Positions 1-12,628 of a stretch of 64,000 bases of DNA are shown one piece after another. The translations under genes were made by a program, and so were the position numbers. Source of the DNA: Anaerolineae bacterium. Lineage in GTDB: Bacteria; Chloroflexota; Anaerolineae; Anaerolineales; Anaerolineaceae. Location of the stretch: positions 496,001 to 560,000 of the forward strand of contig JABUFD010000001.1 in assembly GCA_013314735.1 (NCBI GenBank), given 5' to 3'. The notes beneath the pieces were generated by a model. That model did no database searches. It was not told the origin of the DNA and saw nothing but the letters and a program-made list of their open reading frames with translations. Position 1 is the stretch's first letter; each line of letters starts with the position of its first letter.

Positions 1-1156
1 AGCCTGCAGCGTCGCTCTGGTTGTAGACCTCGTCCTCACCGAAGGTAGCGAACTCAGGATGGTAGAGGCTATTGGGGCTTTTCCGACCCTGGACGATCAC
101 ATTGCCCTTATACAGTTTCAGGCGCACAACCCCGCTGACCACTTTTTGGGTTTCCGAAAAGAAGGCATCGAGTGATTTCCGCAATGGGGTGAACCATTGG
201 CCAAAATACACCAATTCGGCATACTTTAATGCCAGCAGGTCTTTATAGTGGATGGTTTCACGGTCAATCGTGATCGATTCCAATTCAGAATGGGCGTGGA
301 CCAGAATGGTACCGCCGGGGGTTTCATATATACCACGGGATTTCATTCCCACCAGGCGGTTTTCAACCATATCGCAAATCCCGATCCCGTGTTTTCCGCC
401 CAATGTATTCAACTGTTCAATCAGTGCAGCCGGCGAGAGCGGTTCCCCATTCAGCGCGATCGGGTTGCCTTCGAGGAATGTGATTTCGATCATCTCAGCG
501 GTGTCCGGTGCCTGTTCTACCGGGGTTGTCATACAATACAGCCCGTCCTGAGGGGCGTTGTCAGGGTCTTCAAGATCGGCGCCTTCGTGTGACAAATGCC
601 ACAGGTTGCGGTCGCGGCTGTACAGGGATGGGTTGCAGGCAGGAAATTCGATCTGATGGTCTTTGAGGTATTGCATGGCGTCCTCGCGGCTCTTGATGTG
701 CCATTCACGCCATGGGGCGATGACCTGCAAACGCGGATTGAGGGCTGTGAAGGTCAGTTCAAACCGCACCTGGTCGTTACCTTTTCCAGTGCAGCCGTGC
801 GCGATGGCCTGAGCGCCCTCTTCTTCTGCCACTTTGACCAGGTATTTGGCAATTAACGGACGAGCAATGGAGGTTCCCAGCAAGTACTTGCGCTCATAAA
901 TCGCACCGGAACGGATCATGGGAAAAATGTAATCTTTGGCGAATTCTTCTTTGAGGTCAAACACGACCAGTTTTGACGCTCCGCTTTTCAGCGCACGGGC
1001 TTCAAGGTTATCCAGCTCAACCACGCCCTGCCCCACGTCCGCGGTAACTGCAATGACTTCGCACTCATAATTTTCAATCAACCAGGGGATGATAACCGAG
1101 GTATCCAAACCGCCAGAATAGGCCAGAACAACTTTGTTGATTTGCGGGTGTTTCAT
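1..1156 (-). CDS. argG: Argininosuccinate synthase, 3' end cut by window edge
   Basis: ArgG condenses citrulline with aspartate using ATP, the penultimate step of arginine synthesis in the cytoplasm. Reading leftward, the protein opens [20 protein letters not shown]; the AYSGGLDTS stretch at residues 12-20 is the ATP-pyrophosphatase loop of this family. Further family blocks are visible, such as [14 protein letters not shown] and [14 protein letters not shown]. About 385 codons lie in the window, so only a short C-terminal piece of the usual ~400 residues is missing. The ATG at 1156-1154 follows a GGAG at 1166-1163 with a 6-base gap. The gene is transcribed away from dnaA and sits behind its own leader peptide and terminator, so it is probably controlled by arginine supply. 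Identification is secure. Confidence 0.96.
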
Positions 1157-1184
1157 TTATTTCTCCATTCACATGATGTTGGTA

Positions 1185-1215
1185 AAAATAAAAAGCTCCT
1201 CCCAGATGGAGGAGC
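1185..1215 (-). terminator. Intrinsic terminator inside the argG leader (attenuator)
   Basis: On the minus strand an 8-bp perfect stem GCTCCTCC/GGAGGAGC (1215-1208 with 1202-1195) closes a 5-base loop and is followed by a T-rich run TTTTTATTTT. It lies after the leader peptide stop and 29 bases upstream of the argG start codon, so it can only act on argG transcription. The segment CCATCTGG (1209-1202: inner stem, loop and first base of the 3' arm) is exactly complementary to CCAGATGG at 1259-1252 inside the leader peptide coding region, a candidate antiterminator pairing. Stem and complementarity are seen directly; the switching behaviour is inferred. Confidence 0.85.
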
Positions 1216-1243: not shown

Positions 1244-1318
1244 TCATAACACCATCTGGATATCCATGTGTTGTGGTCGGGTTCGTCGGAAAATAGAGAA
1301 TGCCGTTTTTATCGCCAT
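1244..1318 (-). CDS. Arginine-rich leader peptide of argG (24 aa)
   Basis: A 24-residue reading frame begins MAIKTAFSIFRRTRPQ and ends in MVL at a TGA at 1246-1244. Residues 11-14 are Arg-Arg-Thr-Arg and all three arginines use the codon CGA. The ATG begins at 1318, only 6-7 bases after the -10 hexamer, so the mRNA is predicted to be leaderless and no Shine-Dalgarno is present. The coding segment CCAGATGG (1259-1252), 18-25 bases past the last Arg codon and almost at the stop codon, can pair with the terminator loop. A ribosome waiting at the Arg codons would leave this segment free; a ribosome finishing at the stop would cover it. This is the arrangement of ribosome-mediated amino-acid attenuators; translation itself is inferred. 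Confidence 0.75.
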   Translation of the reverse strand: MAIKTAFSIFRRTRPQHMDIQMVL

Positions 1319-1324
1319 GCTGTG

Positions 1325-1352
1325 ATTCTAACAACCTCTTGTGCTTTGTCAA
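1325..1352 (-). promoter_or_regulatory. Promoter of the argG leader
   Basis: The minus strand shows TTGACA at 1352-1347, a 16-base spacer, and TAGAAT at 1330-1325. The predicted start of transcription falls at about 1318, coinciding with the A of the leader-peptide ATG. The same -35 and -10 hexamers occur at the promoter of the amino-acid transporter leader (9868-9896). Confidence 0.8.
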
Positions 1353-9812: not shown

Positions 9813-9867
9813 ATCAAGGACGATCTGGATTTTTCACCAAATATCGGCACATACTTTTTGAAAAAGC

Positions 9868-9896
9868 TTGACACGTCAAAAGAATCTTGCTAGAAT
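9868..9896 (+). promoter_or_regulatory. Promoter of the amino-acid transporter leader
   Basis: A perfect TTGACA at 9868-9873, a 17-base spacer and TAGAAT at 9891-9896 predict transcription start at about 9900-9904. The leader-peptide ATG is at 9907, so the untranslated part is at most seven bases. Confidence 0.88.
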
Positions 9897-9906
9897 CGTG
9901 AACATT

Positions 9907-9963
9907 ATGGTGAAATCAGCAGAGAGCCGACGACGAAACGAACTATATCATCTTCCTCAATAG
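9907..9963 (+). CDS. Arginine-rich leader peptide of the ABC transporter operon (18 aa)
   Basis: The frame encodes MVKSAESRRRNELYHLPQ and ends at TAG 9961-9963. Residues 8-10 are Arg-Arg-Arg, all written CGA. It starts within seven bases of the predicted transcription start, with no Shine-Dalgarno. The stop codon overlaps AGGAAGAGCT (9962-9971), which can pair with the 5' arm of the downstream terminator, and the final codons TCTTCCT (9951-9957) can pair with AGGAAGA (9962-9968) instead. This gives the alternative 1:2, 2:3 and 3:4 pairings of a classical attenuator. Slow decoding of the CGA codons under arginine shortage would expose 9962-9971; completion at the stop codon would cover it. Translation and stalling are inferred. 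Confidence 0.8.
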   Translation: MVKSAESRRRNELYHLPQ

Positions 9964-10010
9964 GAAGAGCTGTTCGTATGCTCAAAGCGTTTCACTCAAA
10001 AAGCAAATGG

Positions 10011-10036
10011 AAGCCTTCCTGACGGGAAGGCTTTTT
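10011..10036 (+). terminator. Attenuator terminator upstream of the amino-acid transporter
   Basis: A 9-bp perfect stem AAGCCTTCC (10011-10019) with GGAAGGCTT (10025-10033), a five-base loop and a run of five T lies about 170 bases before the binding-protein start codon. Because it stands between the promoter and the first structural gene, it should be conditional. AGCCTTCCT (10012-10020) can pair with AGGAAG and GCT at 9962-9971 (9 bp with one bulged A), which would destroy the terminator stem. Confidence 0.87.
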
Positions 10037-10203
10037 GGTACATTTGCTCCCGTTTTTCCCCATCGAATATTCAGTTTAGTGCCAGAAACCGATCCCCGCA
10101 AATGCGAAGTGGTAATCGAAATGGTTGTTGTACATCGCAGGATTCCCTGGTGCAGGGCGGAGCGATGAGAAGAAGATCAAATTTTTATTTACAGGAGATA
10201 GTC

Positions 10204-10941
10204 ATGAAAAAAGCTTTATTTGTAGTCAGTATTGTGTTGATGTTGGGAATGGTGCTGGGTGCATGCAGCCAGAAGTCAGATGTGTATACTGTTGGCACTG
10301 ACGCGACCTTTCCACCTTTCGAAATGATGGATGATGACAAGAACCTGATCGGTTTTGACATCGAATTGATGGAAATGATTGCTGAAGAAGCTGGCATCGA
10401 CATCGAATTCAAGAACACATCCTTCGACGCTATGCTCGCCGGTATGACCACCTGCCAGTATGATATGGCGGCCTCTGCGATAACCATCACGGATGAGCGT
10501 AAGGAAACCATGGCCTTTTCTGTGCCATACATTAACGCTGGTCAGGCGGTTGTTGTAGCTGCTGATTCTGCCATTACTGGCGTGGATGATCTGGTCGGAA
10601 AAACGATCGGTGGACAACTCGGCACGACTGGTTTGATGGAAGCAGAGGCGGTTGTTGATGCCACTGTAAAAACCTATGACAGTTATGAACTGGCATTCCA
10701 GGATGTTGCCAATGGGCAGGCAGACGCGATCATCATCGACTATCCGACCGCCCTGGCGTATGTAGCCCTGAACGAGGGCAAACTGAAAGTTGTCGGCGAA
10801 CCCTTCACCGATGAGAACTACGGCATTGTCATTTGCAAGTCCAATACGGAATTGCAGGAAAAAGTGAATGCGGCCCTGACCACCTTGATTGCTGAAGGCA
10901 AAGTGGCCGAGTTGGAACAGAAATGGCTGGCTGGTGAGTAA
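10204..10941 (+). CDS. Polar amino-acid ABC transporter binding lipoprotein, probably arginine
   Basis: A 245-residue member of the family 3 extracellular solute-binding proteins. It begins MKKALFVVSIVLMLGMVLGAC with a lipobox LGAC, so Cys21 should be lipidated and the protein held on the outer face of the membrane. The mature part shows YTVGTDATFPPFEM and DMAASAITITDERKETMAFS, typical of ArtJ/HisJ/GlnH-type proteins that bind the alpha-amino and carboxyl groups of an amino acid. An in-frame extension back to 10102 exists, but the ATG at 10204 has AGGAGA seven bases upstream and a proper signal peptide. Permease and ATPase genes follow. Arginine as ligand is inferred from the CGA-rich leader peptide. 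Confidence 0.92.
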   Translation: MKKALFVVSIVLMLGMVLGACSQKSDVYTVGTDATFPPFEMMDDDKNLIGFDIELMEMIAEEAGIDIEFKNTSFDAMLAGMTTCQYDMAASAITITDERKETMAFSVPYINAGQAVVVAADSAITGVDDLVGKTIGGQLGTTGLMEAEAVVDATVKTYDSYELAFQDVANGQADAIIIDYPTALAYVALNEGKLKVVGEPFTDENYGIVICKSNTELQEKVNAALTTLIAEGKVAELEQKWLAGE

Positions 10942-11056: not shown

Positions 11057-11875
11057 ATGTCGGAATCCAAAGACACCTCGCAAAAGATGTTCCAAATTTT
11101 GGGTAATGAAACTGCGCCCCAAAAACTGGACCCCTGGTGGTGGCTGGTAGGTGTGGTGGTGGCAATTGTCGCCGTGTTGGTCGTGGCTTTTCCGGATCCT
11201 TACCGGTCAATGTTGGTTTTTTTCCTGGATGGTATGGGAATTTCCATATATGTCACAATGCTCAGTTTCATTCTCGTCCTTTTTGTGGGTTTGCTGGGAG
11301 GGCTGGGGCGCGTATCCAAAAATCCGTTAGTCCATGGTATTACCACGCTGTATGTGGAAGTTGTGCGCGGGATCCCGCTACTGGTTCAATTATTGTTCTG
11401 GTATTTTGCATTTCCATCGGTCATCCAGTCTATTGGTCTGACATTAAACATTGTTGCTTTCCAGAAATACCTCGCGGACCCAATCGGCATGGCTGTAATG
11501 GGTTTGGTTTTTTGTTATGCTGCTTATATGAGTGAAATTTACAGGGCTGGTATTCAGAGCATAGCAAAAGGACAGATGGAAGCCGCCCGCAGCCTGGGCA
11601 TGACCAAATTTCAAGCAATGCGTTATGTGATCATGCCGCAAGCCTTCCGTGTGATTCTGCCGCCGGTGGGAAATGAATTTATTGCGCTGTTAAAAGATTC
11701 ATCTCTGGTGAGTGTAGTTGCAGTTGCCGACCTGACCCGCAGAGGCCGTGAATATATGGCGGCCCACTTTAATCCAATCCAAACCTGGCTGCTGATCGGG
11801 TTGCTCTACCTGGTGATGACGTTGATTGCCTCCCGGATTGTCACTTGGGTCGAGAAGAAATCCAAAATGGAGTAA
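11057..11875 (+). CDS. Polar amino-acid ABC transporter permease
   Basis: A 272-residue inner-membrane permease of the HisM/GlnP type with several hydrophobic helices. The cytoplasmic EAA loop reads EAARSLGMTKFQAMRYVIMP, followed by QAFRVILPPVGNEFIALLKD, the family hallmark that docks on the ATPase. Start ATG at 11057 is about ten bases after GAAAGG; a GTG at 11036 would add seven residues and has no better site. The N-terminal ~25 residues are hydrophilic and longer than usual. It sits between the binding protein and the ATPase, and one copy probably forms a homodimeric channel, since no second permease gene is present. Confidence 0.93.
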   Translation: MSESKDTSQKMFQILGNETAPQKLDPWWWLVGVVVAIVAVLVVAFPDPYRSMLVFFLDGMGISIYVTMLSFILVLFVGLLGGLGRVSKNPLVHGITTLYVEVVRGIPLLVQLLFWYFAFPSVIQSIGLTLNIVAFQKYLADPIGMAVMGLVFCYAAYMSEIYRAGIQSIAKGQMEAARSLGMTKFQAMRYVIMPQAFRVILPPVGNEFIALLKDSSLVSVVAVADLTRRGREYMAAHFNPIQTWLLIGLLYLVMTLIASRIVTWVEKKSKME

Positions 11876-11878
11876 GCA

Positions 11879-12628
11879 ATGAAAACTGAAAAAGAGCCAA
11901 TCATTCACATTGAAAATGTCCATAAACACTTTAAAGAAGGCCAGGTCCGGGCATTGAACGGCGTCAGCCTGGATGTATATCCCGGTGAAGTAGTGCTGAT
12001 CATCGGTCCATCTGGTTCTGGCAAGTCTACCTTATTGCGGTGTATCAACCGCCTGGAAGATATCAATAGCGGACATATCGAGGTTGATGGTATTCCTTTG
12101 ACTACAGCAGAAAACATCAATGCTGTGCGTGCCGAAACAGGCATGGTATTTCAGCAATTTAACCTGTTCCCACACCTGACTGTGCTTGAAAATATTTGCC
12201 TCGCACAGCAAGTTGTGCGGAAAAGAAGCCACCAGGAAGCGGAATCGATTGCCATGGAATTGTTGGCAAAAGTGGGTATACCAGAAAAGGCCCACGCCTA
12301 CCCGGGACAGCTTTCCGGCGGTCAGCAGCAACGGGTGGCAATTGCCAGGGCGCTTGCGATGAACCCAAAGATCATGTTATTTGATGAACCCACCAGCGCA
12401 TTGGATCCTGAAATGATCCAGGAAGTGTTGGATGTGATGATCCAGCTTGCCAAAGAAGGAATGACGATGGTGGTGGTTTCCCATGAGATGGGTTTTGCCC
12501 GTGCCGCTGCCGACAGGGCCATCTTGATGGATGATGGTGTCATTGTTGAAGAAGCCACACCGGATGAATTGTTTGAGCATCCCAAAGAAGAAAGAACCAA
12601 ACTGTTTTTGAGTAAAGTGTTGAAGTAG
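11879..12628 (+). CDS. Polar amino-acid ABC transporter ATP-binding protein
   Basis: A 249-residue cytoplasmic ATPase of the GlnQ/HisP/ArtP group. It has Walker A GPSGSGKS at residues 43-50, signature [16 protein letters not shown], Walker [15 protein letters not shown] and the switch histidine in VSHEMGFAR. It starts three bases after the permease stop codon and ends at a strong terminator, completing a three-gene import operon. The leader peptide upstream of the operon argues for arginine or a similar basic amino acid as substrate, but the ATPase itself does not show specificity. Confidence 0.95.

Follow-up and report, generated by a model that had tools for sequence, protein, structure and literature searches.

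In the classical attenuators of the Escherichia coli trp and his operons, a leader frame carrying cognate codons is followed by mutually exclusive antiterminator and terminator structures, and stalling of the ribosome on the leader gives read-through. Attenuation of this type was described as unknown outside the Proteobacteria and Actinobacteria, the ermC leader excepted, in an account that added the Firmicutes (Naville & Gautheret 2010, PMC2965389), for which further his attenuators were reported later (PMC9413887). Orf34 of Salmonella speF is a 34-codon upstream frame with a Shine-Dalgarno site and two consecutive arginine codons (12 and 13) ahead of an inducible ornithine decarboxylase. Pausing without arginine is described as shifting the mRNA structure towards expression, with Rho-dependent termination, RNase G decay and, in that account, no intrinsic terminator found (PMC6386406). 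A leaderless leader frame has a precedent in trpL of the alphaproteobacterium Sinorhizobium meliloti, a tryptophan attenuator whose transcript is reported to begin at the leader ATG (PMC7298713), and premature terminators ahead of ABC importers are described for ABC-leaders and T-boxes (PMC2965389). For Chloroflexi, a published survey detected leaderless genes in 4 of 12 genomes and estimated their share in those four at about 5% (PMC3160421). Among the open-licence literature matches listed, we found no report of amino-acid attenuators in the Chloroflexota, a phylum that the available text of PMC4833913 names only among groups with few genomes.

We analyzed a 64,000-nucleotide stretch (the window; C9:496001-560000) of a 4.1-Mb, 13-contig Anaerolineaceae genome, and consider it probable (roughly 0.7) that the leader at 9868-10036 works as an arginine-tuned transcription attenuator of the ribosome-mediated kind, with an amino-acid ABC importer of three genes under its control. 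Its design is that of the E. coli trp and his leaders, from which it differs in its amino acid, its importer target, its phylum and its near-leaderless start. Like speF orf34 it has a short frame with consecutive Arg codons and a proposed shift towards expression on pausing, but it carries an intrinsic terminator, which sets it outside the orf34 type. It also differs from ABC-leaders and T-boxes, in that a search of the window with Rfam 15 returned no T-box, riboswitch or other family, a single tRNA elsewhere being the only match. S. meliloti trpL serves tryptophan, whereas in the Anaerolineaceae the layout is found ahead of more than one operon and for more than one amino acid. This reading would place codon-reading attenuation in the Chloroflexota, in an arginine version with an intrinsic terminator. 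An earlier note on this DNA had proposed leader-peptide attenuation switched on by arginine shortage. Support for the mechanism comes from the leaders of related operons, from codons that match the downstream genes, from covariation and from another Arg leader located before argG in the window, and the three CGA codons together with the argG parallel suggest arginine as the likeliest signal.

Elements of the window leader

All the elements listed in the earlier note (TTGACA-17-TAGAAT, 18-codon frame, three CGA codons, a segment overlapping the stop codon, terminator) were found (Table 1). By eye, the ATG lies 10 nt past the -10 box with no Shine-Dalgarno site, and the frame would undergo leaderless translation from near the 5' end. 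The leader occupies the gap (9813-10203) between a 958-residue protein, which has no NCBIfam match at E<=0.001, and the binding protein, permease and ATPase genes in tandem, the importer starting 167 nt past the end of the terminator. Upstream of the lipoprotein start at 10204, an in-frame ATG AGA AGA AGA (MRRRSNFYLQEIV) is present at 10165-10204; it is probably chance, because 10204 has a Shine-Dalgarno-like site and a lipoprotein signal.

Table 1. Features of the two leaders and of the importer genes in the window
Feature	Position	Strand	Details
argG, argininosuccinate synthase, runs off window	1..1156	-	NF001770 591.9 bits, cut-off 334; genome match
argG leader terminator, GCTCCTCC-ATCTG-GGAGGAGC + T-rich tail	1184..1215	-	hairpin 1215-1195
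argG leader frame, MAIKTAFSIFRRTRPQHMDIQMVL	1244..1318	-	CGA CGA ACC CGA at 1288-1277; start 6 nt past -10 box
argG leader promoter, TTGACA-16-TAGAAT	1325..1352	-	
Importer leader promoter, TTGACA-17-TAGAAT	9868..9896	+	11/12 consensus positions matched
-35, TTGACA	9868-9873	+	spacer 17 nt
-10, TAGAAT	9891-9896	+	
Importer leader frame, MVKSAESRRRNELYHLPQ, 18 codons	9907..9963	+	ATG 9907 to TAG 9963
Putative regulatory codons, CGA CGA CGA	9928..9936	+	codons 8-10
Outer helix 5' arm, ACGAAC	9938..9943	+	MFE fold
Inner hairpin, TCTTCCT-CAAT-AGGAAGA	9951..9968	+	arms 9951-9957/9962-9968; 1:2 of the earlier note
Predicted antiterminator 5' segment, AGGAAGAGCT (AGGAAG-A-GCT)	9962..9971	+	overlaps leader stop
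Outer helix 3' arm, GTTCGT	9972..9977	+	MFE fold
Predicted antiterminator partner, AGCCTTCCT	10012-10020	+	in terminator 5' arm
Intrinsic terminator	10009..10036	+	-16.4 kcal/mol for 10008-10038
Terminator parts	5' arm 10009-10020; loop 10021-10023; 3' arm 10024-10035; T run 10032-10036	+	
Lipoprotein substrate-binding protein, polar/basic amino-acid type	10204..10941	+	NCBIfam TIGR01096 164.6 bits (best), cut-off 256.35
ABC permease, HEQRo type	11057..11875	+	TIGR01726 67.5 bits, cut-off 42.2
ABC ATPase, GlnQ-like	11879..12628	+	NF007027 323.2 bits, cut-off 379

The region 9900-10060 is predicted to fold more stably than any of 200 dinucleotide shuffles (z -3.55). A promoter-scan program reported the terminator hairpin on the minus strand only, under its own T-run rule, the plus strand having T5. 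As a DNA query against 60 relatives, the leader matched only itself. An RRR run in an ATG frame of 10-45 codons arose in 778 of 20,000 shuffles of the intergenic region, so the frame alone could be due to chance; an RRR frame with a TANNNT box 9-11 nt upstream, terminator not required, arose in 40 of 20,000. The frame by itself is unimpressive, and the weight is carried by the geometry, the terminator and the relatives.

Ribosome position and the alternative folds

To compute the folding states, we masked the RNA up to 12 nt from the first base of the A site, shifted this mask along each frame, and obtained the probability that upstream RNA occupies the terminator 5' arm at a stage when the 3' arm has yet to be made. 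For the window leader this probability was 0.98 when any of the three CGA codons stood in the A site, and 0.23 when the stop codon did. It was already 0.64-0.81 on codons 2-7 and stayed near 1 through codon 15, so the modelled antiterminator state is not confined to the CGA codons and extends beyond them. The drop from the basic codons (codon 7 on) to the stop was matched by 0 of 100 whole-leader shuffles; other single leaders were weaker, with 2 to 36 of 100 shuffles equalling theirs, and the mean drop over leaders (0.39) exceeded the largest of 100 null means (0.25). The value with no ribosome varied with the 3' cut (0.48, 0.03 and 0.40-0.48 in three calculations).

The earlier note had described mutually exclusive 1:2, 2:3 and 3:4 hairpins, its segment 1 being the 5' arm of the inner hairpin. 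Alternative hairpins are present as described there, but one detail needs correcting: under the footprint chosen here, a ribosome whose A site holds codon 10 extends to about 9945, and segment 1 (9951-9957) stays uncovered. What a CGA-stalled ribosome covers and opens instead is an outer helix, missed there, that surrounds the inner hairpin; the two structures together come to -13.2 kcal/mol, and the inner 6-bp core (9952-9967) to -5.2 kcal/mol. With the ribosome stalled and the terminator incomplete (fold of 9948-10024, -18.3 kcal/mol), the antiterminator segment pairs with its partner. At equilibrium, however, the complete stalled leader remains most stable with the inner hairpin and the terminator both formed (-28.3 kcal/mol), and antitermination must therefore be kinetic, a matter of timing.

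We predict that transcription starts a few nucleotides before the ATG and that the frame is translated without a Shine-Dalgarno site. When Arg-tRNA is plentiful, the ribosome would reach the stop and cover 9962-9971, and the terminator would form. When arginine is short, it would pause on CGA CGA CGA and cover the RNA to about 9945, removing the outer helix, upon which 9962-9971 would pair with 10012-10020 before the terminator 3' arm is made. The terminator would thus be pre-empted and transcription would proceed into the importer.

Related leaders in the Anaerolineaceae

Relatives of the binding protein scoring at least 150 bits were taken from family genomes and named genomes, giving 75 distinct loci, mostly from Chloroflexota and including the window (90 merged to 75 as duplicates; L038 and L094, which have no start, left out). 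The upstream scan covered 350 nt per locus (218 nt in L060; G006:C47 and the second gene of G012 left out). A terminator was present in 11 of the 75, accompanied in 10 by a Lys/Arg/His-rich leader frame (L025 and L030 read by eye) and in one, L085, without a leader frame; L080 has a leader frame with a decayed terminator. The leader loci span five genera, namely g1 (the window), g11 (six loci), g28, g2 and g58. In the earlier note, orthologous operons without the frame were to count against the proposal, and most loci do behave in this way: 65 of the 75 lack the frame-terminator pair in the 350 nt scanned, relaxed reading included, which we read as presence of the switch in particular lineages. 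A leader frame alone is a weak sign, since a short frame following a -10-like box was also seen at eight loci in which no terminator was detected (L080 is one of these).

Where a leader occurs, its geometry is that of the window. The -10-like box lies at an equal distance ahead of the ATG, the gap being 10 nt in nine and 11 nt in two of 11 leader loci by eye; in the wider set of 61 leaders, 36 can be read with a gap of 10 nt, and the others spread from 5 to 12 nt. By eye, no Shine-Dalgarno site was seen before the 11 starts, and these leaders were therefore taken as leaderless. Most relatives also share the fold plan of the window leader, with the 5' arm of the outer helix in the K/R codon region, its 3' arm near the stop, an inner hairpin enclosed, and then the terminator. 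In ten leaders, K, R and H account for 62 of 253 codons when the leader frame is read, whereas the two alternative frames give 32 and 36. They sit at stall positions that give antitermination, as equalled by 3 of 5,000 circular shifts at a 12-nt footprint, in a set that is not independent since 6 of the 10 leaders come from one genus. Other footprints gave 175 of 5,000 (9 nt) and 0 of 5,000 (15 nt). At 12 nt the single residues gave 39 (R), 18 (H) and 1,236 (K) of 5,000, with 233 for acidic and 231 for S/T/N/Q codons.

These comparisons bear on an alternative in which the hairpin simply ends transcription of the upstream gene, or of a small RNA started at the promoter at 9868, and the short frame is there by chance, with no attenuation. 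The frequency of RRR frames in shuffles, the 167 nt between terminator and importer, the absence of the pair from most related loci and the short frames at terminator-less loci would all fit. Against this, leader and terminator accompany the importer even where the nearest reading frames upstream are not the same (all different in 10 leader loci plus one more, two sister pairs excepted), and frame, start distance and codon identity recur, with covariation. We consider this alternative very improbable.

Another alternative is an arrest-peptide switch resembling SpeFL or TnaC, with free arginine or a polyamine sensed by the growing leader peptide while it is still inside the ribosome. The leader peptide is short and Arg-rich, and five related leader peptides share the ending GGAA[LF]G[AV]; the related peptides include MTMLLVLQPKRKSLDHTSPGGAALGA, MIKTYVQELKRNHHHNRPSTGGAALGA, MIAFNLNAKHPRARHRSSMGRIGFSGRLLPV and MNMILRKPYRKHPDNLSLWVRSLTLFG. 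The window peptide shares nothing of this ending, and L099 reads a similar RNA in a different frame (EPFLKERLLALN), which argues that the RNA rather than the peptide is conserved; TSPGGAALGA was rejected as an arrest peptide on this ground. Sensing by the peptide is thus scarcely credible, and we retain attenuation by codon reading.

The core pattern of the g11 leaders, with up to 3 mismatches, was found in 2 of 101 genomes, both of one genus, and an Rfam search of four related loci at E<=1 gave sub-threshold matches in L037 only. By eye, an AGGAGG follows the terminator by about 10-25 nt in seven loci (L037, L089, L090, L098, L099, L030 and L082), well upstream of the point where the binding-protein gene begins, a start served by a separate Shine-Dalgarno-like site; the AGGAGG lies much further down in L025 and is absent from the window.

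A covariance model (R1) was built from the six g11 leaders, and 70 of the 147 family genomes contain matches to it at E<=0.1. Beyond the training leaders, 63 distinct matches, not strictly the best-scoring, were inspected by eye: 51 are leaders by frame and terminator, and 12 were rejected as ordinary terminators or unclear (L133, L184, L185, L188, L194, L195, L197, L198, L203, L205, L206 and L208). Over 151 genomes of the order, under strict filters, R1 matched two at E<=0.001, both of the family Anaerolineaceae. With R1 the window leader reaches no more than 17.3 bits (E 0.074 over 141 kb), its own minus strand giving 17.0 bits, and the window's genome gave no match at E<=0.1. Its place in the class therefore rests not on the model but on layout and codons, namely an ATG about 10 nt past the -10 box, a regulatory run around codons 8-12, an outer helix enclosing an inner hairpin, and a terminator.

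In this class the leader codons follow the downstream gene. Leaders of argG read RRRARR, RRRVRR, RRRARR and KRARR (four genomes, two genera), the one hisD leader HHHH, those of a homocitrate-synthase-like gene KQLKK (four genomes of one genus), and five lysX leaders in four genomes KKR, KKR, KRAR, KRVRR and KRK. Leaders before a second importer's binding protein are mostly KAKRHH- or KR-like, and two before a third importer's read RQRR or RARR. Ile runs (MPANLIVIIIISISALIIIESPF...) precede a citramalate synthase in L210 (552 bits, cut-off 450) and Tyr runs (VTNIFTAYAFYYYGNSLRPAGVFA) a tryptophanase-family gene in L181 (523 bits, cut-off 285). Lys makes up 0.115 of codons in the homocitrate-synthase-like leaders against 0.014 in other frames, a match that is partly circular because the gene scores under both cut-offs (405 against 413.55 for homocitrate synthase, 511.5 against 517 for the 2-isopropylmalate synthase model). 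Arg makes up 0.181 against 0.083 in the argG leaders, the window's included. Gene labels were checked with NCBIfam for two argG members, one hisD and one lysX, other members being named by eye; of the 33 leaders assigned to the second importer, 31 have the binding-protein motif by script, L125 has a variant by eye and L179 precedes another lipoprotein.

Covariation among homologous leaders, which the earlier note had suggested as a check, was found in 48 leaders fitted to R1. Both sides had changed in 26 of 30 pairs (7 of 7 in the outer helix), and 89.3% of cells pair, as high as in 0 of 500 shuffles and against 42-61% in slid controls, figures flattered by an alignment fitted to the structure and by sequences found by R1 itself.

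The window holds a second arginine leader, at argG on the minus strand, whose Arg run reads FRRTRP. Its arm-held probability is 0.31-0.62 on the Arg codons, 0.65 just past them and 0.37 at the stop, so that in the model it switches less sharply than the importer leader. In both window leaders every regulatory Arg codon (six in total) is CGA, whereas among the 272 Arg codons of 12 genes in the window CGA is used 37 times. Elsewhere in the same genome a leader (MMNILTMTPQHDKKAKHTLL) with a terminator precedes a paralogous binding-protein gene (L004 885-1036, G000:C5). The pattern TTGAC-(16-20)-TANNNT-(8-12)-ATG, outside which the argG leader falls with its 6-nt gap, occurs at 40 places in this genome and is meaningless by itself, since the reversed pattern also occurs at 40. 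At 39 of these 40 places inspected, a short frame with a CTTCC-type terminator was seen only at the window leader and the paralogous-importer leader; a few others have unlike hairpins. The ArgR DNA-binding domain was above cut-off in 0 of 147 family genomes (nine with weaker matches), controls passing in 8 of 14, and the window's genome has no LysX above cut-off.

We lean, a little beyond even odds, towards a single leaderless attenuator scaffold that was copied before many Anaerolineaceae operons and re-coded, and that would govern a large share of the family's amino-acid economy where other bacteria use a repressor such as ArgR. On the same slight preference it would read Arg at argG and the window importer, His at hisD, Lys at the homocitrate-synthase-like gene, Lys and Arg at lysX, Lys, Arg and His at the second importer, and perhaps Ile at citramalate synthase and Tyr at the relative of tryptophanase and tyrosine phenol-lyase. 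Leader codons could then offer a way to read the substrates of unassigned importers in uncultured Anaerolineaceae, and a scaffold copied and re-coded would be a natural test of how attenuators change specificity.

The importer and its substrate

In the earlier note the substrate was given as arginine or a relative. This is plausible from the protein comparisons, which place a Thermotoga maritima arginine-binding protein (TmArgBP) among the nearest single-domain solved relatives, but sister leaders mix Lys, Arg and often His. The ten leaders other than the window's that precede related binding proteins all carry K and R, and eight carry H. The same attenuator might accordingly read Arg, Lys and His in general for a broad basic-amino-acid importer, with the triple CGA as a lineage version. 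That reading draws on these ten, on the KAKRHH or KR leaders of paralogous importers, and on His codons fitting the stalling zone as well as Arg codons do; against it, the window's regulatory run is Arg only and all CGA, like that of the argG leader, and the leader's single K and H stand at codons 3 and 15. We regard a general basic signal as unlikely and keep arginine as the signal.

The best named matches of the binding protein are from Anaerolineaceae and other Chloroflexota, and its score with the NCBIfam LAO model is under cut-off. Among solved chains, GlnPQ comes first by summed score (177.5 bits over two domains, best single 98.5), and the best single-domain relatives are AncQR (175 bits), TmArgBP (159 and 152) and ArtJ (150), with the E. 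coli glutamine-binding protein at 122 bits. Placed through our own numbering of the alignment, the TmArgBP pocket residues given in PMC4022495 are kept at F38, E42, F76, Q142 and D183, D37 is Thr, and Ser131 is not placeable. The Gln of GGQLGTTG, described as contacting arginine in TmArgBP (PMC4022495), is common to AncQR and the T. maritima protein and is Lys in both GlnPQ domains; this residue and the solved relatives fit arginine as a candidate substrate.
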